From a virus: a DNA stretch of 46,658 nt. Positions 7,709 through 44,245 of the stretch are shown one piece after another (positions within the stretch are counted from its first letter, which is position 1; every line of letters begins with the position of its first letter). Made by a program: the position numbers and the translations under genes. The notes below the pieces were generated by a model. It was not told where the DNA came from. It was given only the letters and a program-made list of their open reading frames with translations, and did not search any database. Location: IMG/VR virus record IMGVR_UViG_3300042479_000609, positions 1 through 46,658 of that record. One strand, given 5' to 3'.

Positions 7709-7737
7709 ATTATAGCAAATGGGCAAATTCTGGTCAA
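7709..7737 (-). promoter_or_regulatory. Consensus sigma70 promoter for the 127-aa gene
   Basis: TTGACC (7732-7737), 17 bp, TATAAT (7709-7714), 31 nt before the ATG at 7677. Confidence 0.88.
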
Positions 7738-7767
7738 CCACAGGAATTGTGGTATTTTTGCAACAAA

Positions 7768-7790
7768 AAACCCTACATTTTGTAGGGTTT
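7768..7790 (-). terminator. Rho-independent terminator after the PP-loop gene
   Basis: A 10-bp stem AAACCCTACA/TGTAGGGTTT with a 3-nt loop. On the minus strand the stem runs into a T tract (TTTTTTG). It lies 34 nt after the stop at 7824. Confidence 0.85.
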
Positions 7791-7823
7791 TGTGTGTGGG
7801 TTTAATGCAACAGTCTGTCAAAT

Positions 7824-8993
7824 CTATGCCATTAAATGACCATGTTTTTGTAGATAAAAATGACCGTTTAGCATGCCCACAAATCCATCAAACTTGTTGT
7901 CAAAAGTATATTTTAAATATTTTTTATCAATATTTTTTTCAATATGTTCTATGCCCTTGAACCAACATTGATACTCTTTGGTATCTTTGAACCCTTGAAA
8001 AAACCAGTCGTCCCACTCGCACCAAATTGGGCTGGATGATTTTTGAACTTGAAATGTGTCTAATTTCCAATTTGGATAGATTATACCGCGAGAAATGACT
8101 TCATAGGCTTGTCGACTTGCAAAACCAGGAGTGGGCCAGGTCAGTATAGATTTTAACATTGGATTTTGTTCAAACCATGTCATGATCATGTGCGACTGTT
8201 TAATTATAATTTCAGGCAGGTCTGGACTCCAATAAAATAATACCAACTCTGCATTATCATAGTCTTGATTATTCAGTCCACCTTGGCAATTGTTAACTAG
8301 AGTATCTAGGAAATAAACAGCATATTTGTTGTCCTTGATACACACCCGAGGTTTATCGATACCCACAACAATTGCAGTTTTTAATCCTCGGTCCAAGTTT
8401 ACTAATTGTCCTTTTTCTCGAGTGTTTGAATAACGAGTTACAAAGTGAGGATTAAGATGTTCTCTAGTTGTTTTTAACCACTCTTCCCCGTCGTAGTTTT
8501 GAAAACTACTGACAGTTGCCTGCGACACATCGTAATAGGTTATTTTTGTATTGGGACTGCGAGATCGTATTTGGTCTAGTCCCATACGAGTTGTTAACTC
8601 AAATTCTGCTTCGATGTTTCTTGCATCAGTCACACCACGATTGGCAATAACAGTAGGAGTGTGTGACCTATTCCAGATGGTTACAATTTCATCAATATGA
8701 CATCCAGCATCAAAAAAAGCATCAACTAGAGTTTGGCTGTCACTCCCACCGCTATAATTTACTATAACATAGTCGTATTTTTCTCGTATCTGTCGAGCTC
8801 GAATCTTATACAGATCTAGTATACTAATCTCTGGTTCGTGTGTCCAATTAGCGGTATTCCAGACGTTATCACAAAACTGCCACTGTGGGTAGTTGTTTAT
8901 TTTGGTCCCAGCAATACATGCATCTATTTTGCTTCTGTATTGCTGGTCACCAACTGTATAAAACCCAAGTTTGGGATTGATACCATTAATCAT
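7824..8993 (-). CDS. PP-loop (N-type ATP pyrophosphatase) family protein
   Basis: A 389-aa protein with the PP-loop motif SGGSDS (81-86) after a beta strand (YDYVIVNY), as in adenylating enzymes of the PAPS-reductase, NAD synthetase, QueC and TilS type. These enzymes activate a carboxyl or carbonyl group or sulfate with ATP. The C-terminal half is aromatic-rich and not recognised. A QueC-like role is conceivable because FolE, QueD and QueE lie elsewhere in the window, but its length and motif context differ from QueC, so I do not assign it. It overlaps the start region of the downstream operon order: the Bug-type gene upstream ends at 8990, overlapping by 4 nt. Confidence 0.75.
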   Translation of the reverse strand: MINGINPKLGFYTVGDQQYRSKIDACIAGTKINNYPQWQFCDNVWNTANWTHEPEISILDLYKIRARQIREKYDYVIVNYSGGSDSQTLVDAFFDAGCHIDEIVTIWNRSHTPTVIANRGVTDARNIEAEFELTTRMGLDQIRSRSPNTKITYYDVSQATVSSFQNYDGEEWLKTTREHLNPHFVTRYSNTREKGQLVNLDRGLKTAIVVGIDKPRVCIKDNKYAVYFLDTLVNNCQGGLNNQDYDNAELVLFYWSPDLPEIIIKQSHMIMTWFEQNPMLKSILTWPTPGFASRQAYEVISRGIIYPNWKLDTFQVQKSSSPIWCEWDDWFFQGFKDTKEYQCWFKGIEHIEKNIDKKYLKYTFDNKFDGFVGMLNGHFYLQKHGHLMA

Positions 8994-9925
8994 TGAATTG
9001 GTAAATTAAGCTGTTTAGAAATAATTAAGAATTTTCTCTTCTCTTCTTTTAAGAACTCAGCTGGGGAAAAGTCTTTTGCAGGTGCCATGTATAGAGATTT
9101 TAACTCACGTTGAACTTCTGCAGAACTGGCTACGGTCCTGACATGTTGTAAAACTTCAGGATCGGCTCCTCGATTGGCTATTAACAATGACCATCTGTAG
9201 TATTGATGATCGTTGATTTTGAGTTCTTGAAGGGTAGGAACATTTTTAAAAGCGTCTACTCTAGCAGGACTACCCACAGCCACAGGCACTAGTTTGCCAG
9301 AGCTGATGTGCTGATCAAGCAACATTGCGGATTCGTTAAGATAAGTTAATTGGCCTCCCAAAAGATCTGCTATAGCAGGACCTTTGTACGGTATATGAAC
9401 AAAGTTTTTTTTGTCGCCAGCAACCAATGCTGATATAGTATGCCCAGCACCACCGAGCCCTGAGCTTCCGTAGTTTACCTCTCTAGTTTTGGTATAGGTC
9501 ACAAAGTCCTGCCAATTCTTTATTCCAGTTTGAGAATTAACCACTATTACTGAAGGCTCTGTTCCTAGATGCGCTACAGTAACAAAATCCGTGCTTGGAT
9601 CATAAGCGTTGGTGCTTGGATTTAAAATAGGCAAACTAACCAAAGAAGGTCCGGCAACCAACAGTACAGTTTCCCCTGGAGTTTTTAGCGTGGCCATGTG
9701 AGCGTGGGCAATCCCGCCACCTGCTCCCAGTTTGTATTCAATTTGAACTCGATATCGATTTTTGTCAATAGCTGACTCAATCACACGAGCAACACGGTCA
9801 GCACTTCCGCCTGCGGAGTACTGCACCATAATTTTGATTTCTTTGGGCGGCTGGTTAGCCATGCTGGACATTGAAAGTGCGCACAGCAATAAACCAAAAC
9901 AAAATGATAATGATTTTTTAATCAT
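8990..9925 (-). CDS. Bug/TctC-type periplasmic solute-binding protein
   Basis: 311 aa from the ATG at 9923-9925, chosen because an AAGGAAAT Shine-Dalgarno and a Sec signal peptide (MIKKSLSFCFGLLL..., cleaved after about residue 22) begin there; the open frame reaches 10066. The mature part has the family hallmarks IKIMVQYSAGGSADRVAR near the N-terminus, YGSSGLGGAGH, and HIPYKGPAIADLLGGQ. Bug proteins bind small carboxylates in the periplasm, usually for tripartite tricarboxylate transporters, and are greatly expanded in Betaproteobacteria. No TctA/TctB partner is present. It looks like a host-derived gene; in a phage it might alter uptake or sensing. Length is close to normal. Confidence 0.85.
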   Translation of the reverse strand: MIKKSLSFCFGLLLCALSMSSMANQPPKEIKIMVQYSAGGSADRVARVIESAIDKNRYRVQIEYKLGAGGGIAHAHMATLKTPGETVLLVAGPSLVSLPILNPSTNAYDPSTDFVTVAHLGTEPSVIVVNSQTGIKNWQDFVTYTKTREVNYGSSGLGGAGHTISALVAGDKKNFVHIPYKGPAIADLLGGQLTYLNESAMLLDQHISSGKLVPVAVGSPARVDAFKNVPTLQELKINDHQYYRWSLLIANRGADPEVLQHVRTVASSAEVQRELKSLYMAPAKDFSPAEFLKEEKRKFLIISKQLNLPIQ

Positions 9926-9996
9926 GTAATATTTCCTTAAAAAGTTGAATTGTAATGCTTGTGAAAGAATTCCACTTACAGTAGGCGTTCTGTTAT

Positions 9997-10026
9997 AGTA
10001 TAACAGTAAAGACATCACTATGTCAA
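9997..10026 (-). promoter_or_regulatory. Sigma70 promoter for the Bug-type gene
   Basis: TTGACA (10021-10026), 18 bp, TATACT (9997-10002), 71 nt before the ATG at 9925. Confidence 0.75.
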
Positions 10027-10100
10027 GCGTCGATTTGATCTGACGTCGGCCCTGCCGGCGTTGCAAAATTATTTATAAACTGAAATAACCTGGTCAAAAA

Positions 10101-12025: not shown

Positions 12026-12129
12026 TTTTGTTTTCCTTAAAAAGAGAATGAGCTTTAAATCATTCGCTACTATGTATTAGAGTTTGTGGTAACATCAATT
12101 AAAATTTGGGGTATTTTGGTCAAAAGAAA

Positions 12130-12145
12130 ACCCGCCGAAGCGGGT
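12130..12145 (-). terminator. Rho-independent terminator of the tmRNA
   Basis: Stem ACCCGC/GCGGGT with a 4-nt loop (UUCG on the transcript), followed on the minus strand by TTTCTTTTG. It lies directly after the 3' part of the tmRNA coding piece. Confidence 0.85.
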
Positions 12146-12146
12146 C

Positions 12147-12500
12147 TCTGAGTTTCTGTTACGAGGTATGTCTTACCCTAGACGGCTTTTATCAAGCTGC
12201 CAATGCGAACTGTGAGTCGTTTGCATTTACTTTTTTTGCTTCTACAACCGGGTTACCCCTGTCCTACGGCTTCTGCATTGCCGAGCTGTCCACTAATTTA
12301 CTTGTTGCCCTGTCGAATCTAGGTCAGGCCCATCAAAAAGACTTTTTATAATCCAAAACATATAGTTGACTACAACTAAGATGCCCCACATATAAACCCA
12401 ATGCCAATTCTCAAACATAAAAATCCTTTTGGTGGACCTGGGGGGATTCGCACCCCCGTCCAGAACACTTTTCTCTTTGCTTCATACAGCAATAACTCTT
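12147..12500 (-). ncRNA. ssrA: Circularly permuted two-piece tmRNA
   Basis: Read on the minus strand, the acceptor piece comes first: GGACGGGGGTGCGAATCCCC and then CAGGTCCACCA, with the mature 3' end at 12430. A spacer of about 98 nt follows. The coding piece then begins at 12331 with GGGCCTGACCTAGATTCGAC, the typical tmRNA 5' end. GGGCCTG pairs with CAGGTCC over all 7 acceptor bp, which proves the permutation. The resume frame at 12192-12224 encodes the proteolysis tag ANDSQFALAA followed by TGA. tmRNA frees stalled ribosomes and tags the product for degradation. Permuted tmRNAs are known in Alphaproteobacteria, some Cyanobacteria and a group of Betaproteobacteria. The 5' end of the acceptor piece (about 12500) is estimated. 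Confidence 0.92.
12192..12224 (-). other. tmRNA tag reading frame
   Basis: GCA AAC GAC, then codons for S Q F A L A A and TGA: tag ANDSQFALAA. The ALAA end is the ClpXP/ClpAP degron found in most SsrA tags. Confidence 0.9.
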
Positions 12501-12509
12501 ACTTATTGA

Positions 12510-22238: not shown

Positions 22239-22437
22239 CTCTGCATCCCCCGGCGGTAATTATAGAGTATCAAGATATGACGCTATCATACCCATCACAC
22301 ACTCCTTCCACCCGCTTCCCGACAGGAACCGTTATCGCATTGCCAGCGGCCTTTGGGTTTAAAGACTACCACCCGTAGTTGTCACACTACTTCTCATCCT
22401 GTGGGTCACAGTATCCAGAGACTAATCCGGAACGTTC
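22239..22437. other. Gene-free stretch with short hairpins
   Basis: No coding frame or tRNA seen. Small hairpins are visible (CTGTG/CACAG at 22399-22411; CCGCT/AGCGG and GTAG/CTAC elsewhere), suggesting transcribed structured spacer. Confidence 0.4.
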
Positions 22438-22523
22438 TGGTGGAGATGGATGGATTCGAACCACCGCGCTTTTTACAGAACAGATTTACAGTCTGCCGCC
22501 TTCAGCCACTCGGCCACATCTCC
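22438..22523 (-). tRNA. tRNA-Tyr(GTA)
   Basis: Acceptor GGAGATG/CATCTCC, anticodon loop CTGTAAA in stem CAGA/TCTG, long variable arm, CCA encoded. Confidence 0.95.
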
Positions 22524-35536: not shown

Positions 35537-36418
35537 TTATTTCCCCCATCCGTTGCCCCATAGGTCAACGTGTAGTCTTGGACTGTAGTAATAACCACGA
35601 CTGCATGCCCAGTCTGCCACACGAACACGATTCTGCGCATAAGGAGTAACCACACCACCCTGTGGCATAACGTAAACAACACCGGTAAATCCACCTGCTC
35701 TAAATTCTTTAACTGCACGTTCTACTTCTGCAAAATGTTCGTTGGTTTCAACAACAAATTTGAGATATACTGTGCCTAGTGCTTGATAGCTGGCAACAAT
35801 GTCAGGACAGATTGCTTCCTCCCAACTCTCACCGCTGGCACTGAGCTTGGCACTGACTGAAAATGTAATTTCGCGATCTTTCTTGCCGCCCAATGGAGCT
35901 CGTTGCCATTCGTGCATGAAATCTTTAAAACTGGGTTGCAATTTTTGAGTACCATTGGTTTCAAATGTAATGTTACGCAAATCTCCCATGTTTGGGTTAC
36001 TAATTAATTCTTCATATGCACGTTGCCATCCCAACAACGGCTCACCACCTGTGATAACCAAATGTACATCATTACCATTGTCTTGTACCCATTTGTGATT
36101 GGGTGTCAATGCCAACATTTGATCTACCAGCTTATTGTTATCAATAGTTGGACTTAGGTCTTTAAAGTCCGGATGCCAGCTGGCATAACTGTCACAGCCG
36201 GTATTGACCAATGGCAAGTCTTCAAACTTTTTAAAAGGCTGGATCAATTTGTGAGTTGCCGCAATGTCAGTGGCTTCATGACTCACTTCCCCTGGGGGCA
36301 TACCAAATCCTGCACATTTAAAGTTACAGCCAAATGTGCGTAAAAAAACACTGGGTACACCAACAAAGCGTCCTTCACCTTGTGCGGAGTAAAACAGTTC
36401 GCTTACTTTTATTTTCAT
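35537..36418 (-). CDS. queE: QueE-like 7-carboxy-7-deazaguanine synthase with split Cys motif
   Basis: 293 aa from the ATG at 36416-36418. QueE is a radical SAM enzyme turning carboxytetrahydropterin into 7-carboxy-7-deazaguanine. The N-terminal FYSAQGEGRFVGVPSVFLRTFGC and the later HLVITGGEPLLGWQ are typical. The usual CxxxCxxC is not continuous: Cys31 and Cys35 (CNFKC) are followed by AGFGMPPGE, and the third ligand seems to be Cys75 in TGCDSYASW, which aligns with the usual CDTxYxW. An insertion of about 37 residues therefore separates ligands 2 and 3. It is grouped with a radical SAM gene, and QueD and FolE lie further upstream. Confidence 0.85.
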   Translation of the reverse strand: MKIKVSELFYSAQGEGRFVGVPSVFLRTFGCNFKCAGFGMPPGEVSHEATDIAATHKLIQPFKKFEDLPLVNTGCDSYASWHPDFKDLSPTIDNNKLVDQMLALTPNHKWVQDNGNDVHLVITGGEPLLGWQRAYEELISNPNMGDLRNITFETNGTQKLQPSFKDFMHEWQRAPLGGKKDREITFSVSAKLSASGESWEEAICPDIVASYQALGTVYLKFVVETNEHFAEVERAVKEFRAGGFTGVVYVMPQGGVVTPYAQNRVRVADWACSRGYYYSPRLHVDLWGNGWGK

Positions 36419-36419
36419 A

Positions 36420-37268
36420 TTATGTTCCACATGATATCAAACACTGATTGTGTGTTAGATCTAGTTTATTATACAGTAATTCGTCAATGCTGTCAAATTT
36501 TTCTACTGGAGCAAAAAAACAACATGTACTCAGTTTTCCTGATGCGGCTAGATACATCGAAGGCGGCAATAAATGTATACAATTTTTTGGATCAACCACA
36601 GTTGATATTTTTGGCATACGTATCAGATGTTGAAATTCCACCGGTGGTAAAAGATCAAATTCCTCTCCAGTTCTATAATTTTTGGCCAATTGACGATTGC
36701 GATATAATTTAACCAATTTAAAATGTTTAAATCCTAGTTTTTGGCTAGTGCGTATACAATCTTTAACCTGATGTTCGTTGTGTGCATATGGTATAAATTG
36801 CCATGTTGCTGTTCCACCAGCTGATATAAATGCCTTGGCATTTTCAATTACTTTGTTATAGTCTGTGCCTTGCCGATATATTTCGTGTACACCTTTTAGC
36901 CCATCTATACCAAACCAAACGTCATGATTGATGTCAGTTAATAAATTTGCTAAATCTTTCCACCATGCAGTAGTTCTTAAGCTACCGTTGGTATGTATTT
37001 GTATTTTTTGAGTGTGACGTTTAGCAAGTTTAATCAATTCAATAAAATTGTGAGCTATCACTGGATCACCGTAGTTTCCGCAAAATTGTATGCCGTCCAA
37101 CATTGGCAGTTGATTTAGAATATCAGCTAACCGATCAGTTTCAAGATCTTGTTCAACCAGTCCTGGCTTCAATCCATATCCATTGTTGTTTCTGGGACAA
37201 GCCGGACACCAAGCATTGCATTTTGAACTAGCTTCAACATGAAGCCATTTGATGTCACTGGCTTTCAT
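36420..37268 (-). CDS. Radical SAM protein with SPASM-like end
   Basis: 282 aa from the ATG at 37266-37268. The radical SAM motif is CNAWCPAC (C17, C21, C24), then GIQFCGNYGDPV and HTNGSLR, and a C-terminal cluster of cysteines (NCIHLL, STCCFF, NQCLISC) that could hold an auxiliary Fe-S cluster. Its substrate is unknown. It ends 1 nt before queE, so the two are cotranscribed. The end lies in an overlap with the MazG gene's 3' part. Confidence 0.8.
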   Translation of the reverse strand: MKASDIKWLHVEASSKCNAWCPACPRNNNGYGLKPGLVEQDLETDRLADILNQLPMLDGIQFCGNYGDPVIAHNFIELIKLAKRHTQKIQIHTNGSLRTTAWWKDLANLLTDINHDVWFGIDGLKGVHEIYRQGTDYNKVIENAKAFISAGGTATWQFIPYAHNEHQVKDCIRTSQKLGFKHFKLVKLYRNRQLAKNYRTGEEFDLLPPVEFQHLIRMPKISTVVDPKNCIHLLPPSMYLAASGKLSTCCFFAPVEKFDSIDELLYNKLDLTHNQCLISCGT

Positions 37269-37533
37269 ATATGGTTGACCACTGCTGTAACTTTTTTCTT
37301 TTATTTTGAACAGCGGCTTGTATACTAGCATCATCAATAATTTTAAGTTCTCTAAGCAATTCAACCATGCACAGTACATCGCCTACTTCTTCGCACAACA
37401 TTTCTCTATTGGACATTCCACGTTTCAGATGAATTTCATCTATGCCAAATCTACGTATCTTGCTTACAATTTGTATAACCTCAGCACACTCTTCCTGGAG
37501 GATATCCATCACTTCGTTTATTTTTGAGTTCAT
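37255..37533 (-). CDS. MazG-like pyrophosphohydrolase domain, 92 aa
   Basis: LQEECAEVIQIVSKIRRFG followed by LCEEVGDVLCMVELL gives the EExxE...ExxD pattern of single-domain MazG proteins of phages. Such enzymes hydrolyse dNTPs or (p)ppGpp-like nucleotides; substrates here are unknown. It overlaps the methyltransferase stop by 4 nt and the radical SAM start by 14 nt. Confidence 0.8.
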   Translation of the reverse strand: MNSKINEVMDILQEECAEVIQIVSKIRRFGIDEIHLKRGMSNREMLCEEVGDVLCMVELLRELKIIDDASIQAAVQNKRKKLQQWSTIYESQ

Positions 37534-41775: not shown

Positions 41776-42372
41776 TTAATCCTCAATGGTTATTTGTCTA
41801 CAGTCTGGATAATCAACATACACGGGTTGCGGCCTATTAACCTTGATTACGTTGAGCAGGTCCAAACCAATTTCTGCTTCTTCTATGGTGGGCTTGTAAT
41901 GATAACCCACCTTGAACACCTGCTGTGATTCCCATGGCTTGATAGCTAAGTCTCTGCCGTCGTAGCGTTGAGCCAGCATGATATTGTAGGCTTCGACATC
42001 ATCCAGCAAGATAGCACCACCACGACCAATGTGAAGTGGTTTGCCATGCCCAAAGCTCAGGCAGGTCAATGTGTCCGGACGATACATATCTTGTTCGAGT
42101 CTACGTGCTGAATCCCAAATGCGTGTGCCTACAAAAGGGTATTCGCCGACCCAGCGTTGCCAGGCATGATCAAGGTACTCGTATTTGATACCTAACTTGT
42201 GCATGGTCATTGGAATACTCAAATAGGTATAAGGAGTAAACTTGCACTCCTTGACTTGATCGTATCGCAAACACAGTTCAATAGCATGCGTACAACAATC
42301 AGTCATGATTGCATATGGCGCACCGGTAAACTCTGCTAGAGCTTGTTCAAATTTTAATATTTTGTCAAACAT
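41776..42372 (-). CDS. Short DegT/DnrJ/EryC1-like aminotransferase, 198 aa
   Basis: From the ATG at 42370-42372, overlapping the upstream stop by 8 nt. FEQALAEFTGAPYAIMTDCC at the start and SFGHGKPLHIGRGGAILLDD in the middle match sugar aminotransferases; the Lys in HGKPL is the expected PLP lysine. Typical members have about 370 residues; this one lacks most of the C-terminal domain, as some phage and minimal homologs do. It would aminate a keto-sugar, but a reduced function is possible. Confidence 0.7.
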   Translation of the reverse strand: MFDKILKFEQALAEFTGAPYAIMTDCCTHAIELCLRYDQVKECKFTPYTYLSIPMTMHKLGIKYEYLDHAWQRWVGEYPFVGTRIWDSARRLEQDMYRPDTLTCLSFGHGKPLHIGRGGAILLDDVEAYNIMLAQRYDGRDLAIKPWESQQVFKVGYHYKPTIEEAEIGLDLLNVIKVNRPQPVYVDYPDCRQITIED

Positions 42373-44245
42373 TGTCAATTTTGTTAATTCTGTTTTTTGA
42401 TACTGATGCTCGTCGACCAAAATATAATTGTTCAAAGAAGTCCTGTTTGTTTTTATGCTTAAATGGATACGAAATTTCAAGTGTGTTTGGAACGTTTAAT
42501 TCGTCAGAGTTGTTGAACACATAATCGTAAATGTTGTATTGATAGTCAACAGTATACGGGTAACTACCTTCATAATGATGTAGATAATCAGATTGCAACA
42601 ACATTACTTCTTTATAAATTTCAGGATCCAACTCGCAAAATTCGTTGTTAATAATTTGATAAATTTCTTCAAGCGTCAAATCAACATTATCAAACAATAT
42701 GTGGATACTGGTCCAAAGCGCACTATGCCCATCCCTGTTTGGAATAATACTTTCGCCACTTTCTAAAAAAGAAACAATAAAATTCTTCATTCTATAGTAT
42801 TCTTGAGTCAGTAAACTAGTACTAGGACCGTTAACAATTTTATTTTCAATTTGAGAATAGAAATCGTAGTAACTGATATTTTTATGTTTTCTTAGGAACC
42901 TACTTAGAATATGCGTGATGCCACTATAGTGATAAGTCATTATAATATAACTAAACAAATAACTCTTAACAAAATCCTCAAGGGGCATGTACTTTGTGGC
43001 TTTGACTACTACTTCTTTTTCCATAATATCATCACCCTCATTAACTAATGCACCAGTTACAAACTTTGGAACAGCAATACTTTCAATCTGGTGCAGAGTC
43101 CGTTGCTCATAGCTGTTGAGTTCTGAGTTTTCTAATAATTGTGCAAGCCAAACATCCAGGCTGTTGTGTTGCCCGGCCTCGAGTATCAGCCCATGATTTT
43201 GTTTCCAAGTTTCATAGGTCTCATAGGGTAGTCCGAGGATCATTTCAGTGTATGCTGGAATACCATTTTTAAAACATTCTTCTAGCATTTCTTTAAGATC
43301 GCTGATTTCCATATTCTTTCTTTTGATAGCATCGAGAACTTGGTCGTTCATGCTTTGCACACTGACAGTAAATCCTCTATTTTTATCATTACTAAAAAAT
43401 ATTTTTGCAATTTCTATAATTTTTTGTTTTGCATTTTTAGCCCATTGGGCAATAACAACATGCGGAAATCCCTTTGTGTTTTGTAATTGATGGATGTGTT
43501 GTGCAAACTTTTTATCTCTTTCATAGAGCATGCCAAAATTTGCATCAGCAATAAACAAATATGCAACACGATTGTTAGCCATCCAAGTAAGCTCGTCTAG
43601 TACCCGATCTTCTGCAAATTTAAGAACCTTGCTGTATGTTAAGCTACCCCAATCACAAAAAGTACATGAATACGGGCATCCACGGTTGGTTTCTAATACT
43701 CCTTGCCAGTAATACTCAGGATTATCCTTGACTATTTTATCAAACACACCCGATGTGTATGGGCTTGGGTACTCTAAGTTGGCCATTCTAGCAAACGTAC
43801 TAACTTTTTTAATTGGTTTATTATGATATAATGATAATAGTATATCTAAAAATGCCGGCTCACCTTCACCATTGACAATTGTATCAACATATGGATGTTT
43901 CTTAAAGAAAGATTTTTCATAGGGTAATTTAGTAACTTGTGGTCCACCAAATACAATAAGACACTTGGGCCATTTTTCTTTAATAGCCTCGGCTAGTTTT
44001 TTACAATATTCGTAATTCCAGACATAACAACTAAATGCTGCCACGGATGGATTATCAAAGTTTTTAATTGTTTCGTCAATTGACATTCTTTTAAAGACCA
44101 ACTCTTTAAGTGCAAAGTTATCTTTAATCACCGGGTTTTGTACAGCAAAACTCCAAAGGCATCCTACAGAATACGGCAACCAATACCCTTCGGTTCCGCC
44201 AAACACATTTCCATGTGCGGGCTGTAGTAAGTAAACATTATGCAT
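42365..44245 (-). CDS. B12-binding radical SAM protein, 626 aa
   Basis: The N-terminal cobalamin-binding-like Rossmann domain (about 1-140, with CLIVFGGPQVTKLP and NGEGEPAF) precedes a radical SAM core with CPYSCTFC (C190, C194, C197). EMILGLPYETYETWK follows. This is the class B methylase architecture (as in methyltransferases of antibiotic and hopanoid pathways). The long C-terminal region is unique. It probably methylates an unreactive carbon of the product made by this cluster (inference). It overlaps the SGNH stop by 8 nt. Confidence 0.85.
   Translation of the reverse strand: MHNVYLLQPAHGNVFGGTEGYWLPYSVGCLWSFAVQNPVIKDNFALKELVFKRMSIDETIKNFDNPSVAAFSCYVWNYEYCKKLAEAIKEKWPKCLIVFGGPQVTKLPYEKSFFKKHPYVDTIVNGEGEPAFLDILLSLYHNKPIKKVSTFARMANLEYPSPYTSGVFDKIVKDNPEYYWQGVLETNRGCPYSCTFCDWGSLTYSKVLKFAEDRVLDELTWMANNRVAYLFIADANFGMLYERDKKFAQHIHQLQNTKGFPHVVIAQWAKNAKQKIIEIAKIFFSNDKNRGFTVSVQSMNDQVLDAIKRKNMEISDLKEMLEECFKNGIPAYTEMILGLPYETYETWKQNHGLILEAGQHNSLDVWLAQLLENSELNSYEQRTLHQIESIAVPKFVTGALVNEGDDIMEKEVVVKATKYMPLEDFVKSYLFSYIIMTYHYSGITHILSRFLRKHKNISYYDFYSQIENKIVNGPSTSLLTQEYYRMKNFIVSFLESGESIIPNRDGHSALWTSIHILFDNVDLTLEEIYQIINNEFCELDPEIYKEVMLLQSDYLHHYEGSYPYTVDYQYNIYDYVFNNSDELNVPNTLEISYPFKHKNKQDFFEQLYFGRRASVSKNRINKIDNV

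Follow-up and report, generated by a model that had tools for sequence, protein, structure and literature searches.

Does a large phage carry a working tmRNA in the permuted, two-piece form, and what lies in the segment that separates its two pieces? These questions are raised by a minus-strand locus in the window, a 46.7-kb IMG/VR fragment (46,658 nt) with 28 tRNAs. A dCMP deaminase gene lies just upstream of the tmRNA, and thymidylate synthase, GroEL and radical-SAM genes are also present. The initial annotation had proposed a permuted tmRNA with the acceptor piece upstream of the coding piece, and this is borne out by cmscan, ARAGORN and inspection of the sequence. The gene is complete and spans 12491–12147. 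Its acceptor (3′) piece (12430–12491) comprises the 5′ strand of the coaxial stem, a T-arm with the loop UGCGAAU, the acceptor strand CAGGUCC and an encoded CCA, with CAGGUCC-ACCA ending at 12430. The coding (5′) piece (12147–12331, 3′ end approximate) runs from GGGCCUG, which starts at 12331, to just short of the terminator. Both boundaries (12430 and 12331) and the 98-nt length of the intervening segment (12332–12429, minus strand) had been given exactly. The acceptor stem GGGCCUG/CAGGUCC forms all seven pairs across the permutation, as claimed; the third is a G-U pair (G3-U70), the identity pair of alanyl-tRNA synthetase, and there is no mismatch. ARAGORN called a tmRNA* with the tag ANDSQFALAA at 12224–12195; including two stop codons, the tag frame occupies 12189–12224 (minus strand) and the tag ends in ALAA, the usual degradation signal. 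The T-loop lacks the usual U at position 55, and the same loop is common to most relatives. The Rfam covariance-model check proposed with the annotation gave full-length matches of the window to RF04321 (tmRNA_permuted; 119.2 bits, E = 8e-23, gathering score 47) and RF01850 (beta_tmRNA; 102.5 bits, gathering score 84). Piece order, stem, G3-U70, CCA, tag with stops and model scores together confirm, at the level of sequence, a permuted two-piece tmRNA, which by model match is closest to the betaproteobacterial form. A weak match at 22242–22465 (20 bits) was rejected as noise, given its low score and its overlap with a tRNA-Tyr.

Integration at host ssrA is common, and prophages can contain ssrA fragments (PMC9004378), which would fit a non-functional remnant, for example a captured attachment site or a decaying host gene. 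We regard this reading as very improbable, because both pieces are complete and G3-U70, tag and stops are conserved. Nine of 12 related large-phage records (115–525 kb) score above the RF04321 cut-off, as does the isolate Rb1. In record G004 the tmRNA is cut by the contig end, and G005, taken at first sight of its weak double Rfam matches for a broken tmRNA, is really one gene interrupted solely by a 342-nt spacer that holds an ORF. Scanning IMG/VR with the acceptor-piece pattern alone returned 80 loci; the GGGCCTG...TCGA partner lies downstream in 76 of the 76 matches that are not cut by a contig end, and the other 4 reach one. The acceptor pairs of relatives show compensatory changes (GGGCCTG/CAGGTCC, GGGGGTG/CACCTCC, GGGGATG/CATCTCC, GGGGCTG/CAGCTCC and GGGCCAG/CTGGTCC), which also argue against a remnant. 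All 197 unique relatives retain G3-U70; for this set the 5′ piece was located by its complementarity to the acceptor, and pairing is thus itself a search criterion. The tag frame is kept as well (31 × ANDSQFALAA, 16 × ANDEQFALAA). Failure of tag frame and acceptor stem to be conserved in related genomes had been named as an outcome that would count against the tmRNA; both are conserved.

Two further features of the relatives were observed. With few exceptions, T-loops of class UGCGNAU in the acceptor piece go with UCGACAGG in the TCGA-NNGG element of the coding piece and those of class GGCAGNN with UCGAUUGG, a correlation that probably reflects co-evolution of the tRNA-like elbow. Several phage tmRNAs, including L091 and L093, encode very long tags (27–30 aa, e.g. 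ANDNASNVFSFVDFSNARKYVNEDFALAA), some of which end in ALAV or VLA and not in LAA.

The same tmRNA locus, with one SNP in the tmRNA, is present in a 342-kb contig that also carries T4-type Gp23 (PF07068, E = 1e-100), a gene that the window itself does not cover. Because this capsid family matches a contig of such a size with the same locus, the annotation was right to speak of a large phage, and by this marker the window phage is a large T4-type lake phage. It was wrong to call a permuted tmRNA in such a phage unusual. The form is already known from phages and is common: of 18,146 phage genomes, 402 carry tmRNAs, with 133 unique structures that include 53 two-piece cases, Methylophilales phage Melnitz carries a two-piece tmRNA (PMC9004378), tmRNA and SmpB have been noted in huge phages (PMC7162821), and our one IMG/VR scan yielded 76 complete examples.

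The annotation had further suggested a lineage marker for the host, an idea that the isolates contradict. In a collection of phage isolates, the permuted tmRNA was found in Stenotrophomonas phages Mendera, IME-SM1, Bhz51, DLP_6 and BUCT608, Xanthomonas phages Rb1 and X1, Pseudomonas phage PA_L9, Acinetobacter phage BUCT628 and Ruegeria phage RpAliso. The first four of these host genera have a one-piece tmRNA and lie outside the lineages with the permuted form, which is therefore no host marker. The tag fares no better. The degenerate pattern AND[S/T..]QFALAA matched one contig only in 84,980 bacterial and archaeal genomes, a tRNA-dense, phage-like contig in a 0.9-Mb MAG of a small-genome phylum without permuted tmRNA, and the search found the window tag in no clearly bacterial contig. 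Given this single phage-like match and the hosts of the isolates, the tag was ruled out as a host marker. A weak hint at a betaproteobacterial host may come from a TctC-type (Bug) solute-binding receptor gene in the window (8990–10066, 3.7e-31). The Bug family is greatly expanded in Burkholderiales. The window also holds a radical SAM gene cluster (42365–44245 and 35537–37379), with one B12-binding-domain protein and one QueE-like protein. In a related phage contig, L082, ARAGORN called a tRNA with anticodon CUA (tRNA-Pyl, 7729–7803), possibly an amber suppressor.

Ribosome rescue of the virus's own, another proposal of the annotation, is half supported: the RNA is phage-borne, but SmpB is encoded neither in the window nor in 13 related records (14 records in total; control genomes gave the expected matches), and host SmpB would therefore be needed. 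The missing SmpB and the absence of the phage tag from the sampled bacteria are compatible with an RNA whose main role would be that of a decoy or modifier in host trans-translation, by SmpB titration or phage re-tagging, and not as a rescue factor; RNAs with a tRNA-like domain, such as that of DS6A, can inhibit tmRNA (PMC4131195). We think this unlikely, because the tag ends in ALAA, its frame is intact and it is followed by a double stop, none of which a pure decoy would need.

What the initial annotation overlooked is the content of the spacer. The 98-nt segment is predicted not to be part of the mature two-piece RNA, an assignment that draws on the fold and on arm pairing across 148 phage relatives. 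In the predicted fold the acceptor stem continues directly into an 11-bp stem that closes the spacer; the 5′ arm of this closing stem (12429–12419) pairs with a 3′ arm at 12346–12336. A Shine-Dalgarno-like AAAGGA (12424–12429, minus strand) directly follows CCA and lies within the 5′ arm; in 70 of 73 relatives of the SD type, the Shine-Dalgarno sequence (SD) likewise lies within the helix that closes the spacer. Short spacers are hairpins, and in the non-SD class arm pairing averages 10.2 bp, compared with 5.1 bp when arms are swapped between loci. Since the whole precursor segment folds just slightly better than its shuffles (z = −1.8), this arm covariation is the stronger evidence. Downstream of the coding piece, the GC-rich hairpin ACCCGC-UUCG-GCGGGU with its U-run (12121–12145, minus strand), read from the sequence, is a likely intrinsic terminator; the beta_tmRNA model ends in this hairpin, and a simple terminator scan of the window did not list it. 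Upstream, comparison of the corresponding regions points to a TAAGTA box (12500–12505, minus strand) as candidate promoter. It is one mismatch from a T4-late-like TAAATA box that many relatives have in this position; TTGACA/TATAAT or TAAATA occurs there in many of them. A sigma-70 scan gave no promoter match for the window tmRNA.

The sequence AAAGGA-N5-ATG starts a 41-codon frame, MFENWHWVYMWGILVVVNYMFWIIKSLFDGPDLDSTGQQVN (12293–12418, minus strand), with 29 codons in the spacer and 12 in the coding piece; relatives at the same place occur in L236, L124, L165, L256, L282 and L218. In having an SD after CCA and an ORF, the window spacer matches the class of nested genes described below, and the product would be a short hydrophobic peptide, probably of the membrane. 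It is nevertheless quite possible, if in our judgement somewhat doubtful, that this phage permuted tmRNA is of the ordinary sort, its spacer being processed and non-coding, and that the window frame arose by chance, even if other phages do nest genes. Short spacers are for the most part plain hairpins, the open frame taken by itself is marginal (single-sequence shuffle p 0.05), and where the ORF enters the tmRNA body the sequence is set by the RNA and not by the peptide. Against chance, the SD is canonically placed and the ATG occupies spacer position 12, a placement shared by 26 of 70 relatives. The spacer of L236, the one close relative of the window ORF, differs from that of the window at five positions, three of them in the 11-nt leader; the two substitutions in the ORF are one silent change and one V to F, and the peptide is otherwise kept. 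Five other phages have, at the corresponding position, a 29-aa family that shares W-x6-L-x-V-x-NY-xx-W with the window peptide, and hhalign of the peptide against the L124-family profile gave P = 2.9e-5 (probability 74%, about 14 aligned residues) with a shared NYxxW core. We rate the coding evidence for the window's own ORF as moderate.

For the class as a whole the coding evidence is strong. Spacers in an unselected sample of 76 phage permuted tmRNAs range from 35 to 373 nt; in 21 of them CCA is followed by an SD and the spacer contains an ORF of 18 codons or more, and such an SD-led ORF is absent from the other 55. The combination depends on length: 15 of 19 spacers of at least 120 nt have it, compared with 6 of the 57 below that length (Fisher p = 5e-8), and the SD of long spacers mostly lies one to three bases past CCA. 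Adding a scan that required an SD, and is biased accordingly, together with a scan of another acceptor class gave 197 unique permuted spacers, of which 70 carry SD and ORF (at least 18 codons); these group into 38 sequence families that appear mutually unrelated by sequence. The start codon is ATG in 65 of the 70, and in 53 it falls at spacer position 12 or 13. Three families pass Pfam curated cut-offs (DUF2061, 3.5e-20; CxxCxxCC, 1.3e-6; GNAT, about 2e-6). Selection was assessed by Nei-Gojobori dN/dS for pairs within families. Wherever changes suffice, the ratio is 0.06–0.6, with 0.06 for CxxCxxCC, 0.10 for DUF2061, 0.08–0.12 for a 36-aa peptide, 0.13–0.20 for a 122-aa family and 0.25–0.35 for the 29-aa family; for many families of the class these ratios are a clear sign of purifying selection on the ORF. 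No SD-led spacer ORF was present in the cultured-phage loci with a resolved spacer, and a DUF2061 relative in phage MW202753 has no acceptor motif nearby.

Of 19 multi-member families, 8 have one and the same ORF in tmRNA backbones that differ in T-loop class. Because the same ORF is found in divergent backbones, we interpret the spacers as exchangeable cassettes. The ORF stops at the TGA of the conserved tail UGAU-GGGCCUG in 20 of the 38 families and upstream of it in 12; in the remaining 6, including that of the window, the frame continues beyond the predicted cleavage site. Individual spacers showed other features. Longer cassettes in L107, L141, L229, L235 and L274 have GAATAAATA just before an ATG coding for M(R/Q)I(K/N)(E/D)..., a sequence that looks like a T4-type late promoter travelling with the cassette gene. 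A spacer ORF in L369 (2239–2700), from a different tmRNA class, has a CxC...CCGTC pattern resembling bacterioferritin-associated ferredoxin, with no Pfam match at E 0.01. A tRNA-Arg(CCG)-like gene lies inside the permuted tmRNA spacer of L093 (1694–1767, record G008) and resembles a single case that PMC11915505 calls unique.

The betaproteobacterial two-piece tmRNA (RF01850; RF04321) is like that of the window in piece order, acceptor stem, CCA, tag position and full-length model match. However, its spacer, as seen in one Cupriavidus plasmid copy, measures 31 nt and has no SD-led ORF, whereas that of the window is 98 nt long with SD and ORF; the T-loop is UUCGANN in betaproteobacteria and UGCGAAU or GGCAGNN in the phages. 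The Melnitz tmRNA is likewise phage-borne and permuted, in an aquatic myophage with T4-like transcription genes, but unlike the window it is of alphaproteobacterial type and linked to a glutamine riboswitch, and a spacer ORF is not described (PMC9004378). Two further related systems are covered in PMC11915505. Group I introns in tmRNA T-loops carry homing endonuclease genes and so also place a protein gene in a segment removed from the precursor; the phage case involves a permutation spacer and no intron, and its numerous ORF families are small and for the most part not endonucleases. The permuted tmRNA of GCA-2688965 has a tRNA-Ala, also a second gene, inside its spacer, but this is one RNA gene as opposed to the protein-coding cassettes of phages. 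For the curated tmRNA database (11,946 permuted sequences), the same paper names one tRNA in a spacer, the case called unique, and one repeat. Neither in its accessible passages nor elsewhere in the open-access literature did we find mention of protein ORFs in permuted tmRNA spacers. Small protein genes nested in a tmRNA spacer, and recurring in phage relatives, thus appear not to have been described before.

We consider it probable that a large T4-type phage has here a working permuted tmRNA gene, and that a small protein gene is nested in the segment between its two pieces. A single precursor, started at a promoter immediately before the acceptor piece, would fold so that the acceptor stem extends as a helix into the spacer. 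It would then be cut by tRNA-processing enzymes of the host, with RNase P acting at 12331 and 3′ trimming to CCA at 12430, and the two pieces would remain paired and receive alanine. With host SmpB, the charged tmRNA would rescue stalled ribosomes and tag their products. The spacer, excised or unprocessed, may serve as a small mRNA; because its SD is buried in the closing helix, the ORF would be translated chiefly while the 3′ arm has yet to be synthesized, or once processing has opened the helix. A more speculative extension, to which we give little credence, makes the precursor a dual-purpose transcript in which tmRNA maturation excises an mRNA. In cassettes of the window type, which make up 6 of 38 families, cleavage would take away the stop codon. 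The released message would then be non-stop, and the tmRNA just made would tag the peptide translated from it; the tmRNA gene would in this way contain an ArfA-like sensor that gives feedback on tmRNA activity.

The spacer of permuted tmRNAs has hitherto been described as a throw-away segment; in this widespread group of phages it seems to be an exchangeable gene slot. A housekeeping-type RNA gene would thereby double as a nest for varied small proteins, with the ribosome-binding site locked in the processing helix, and the spacer genes would link RNA maturation with translation in a way that can be tested. The spacers would be a new place for phage small proteins, which gene callers may miss, and the gene slot is a possible advantage of the permuted form itself.
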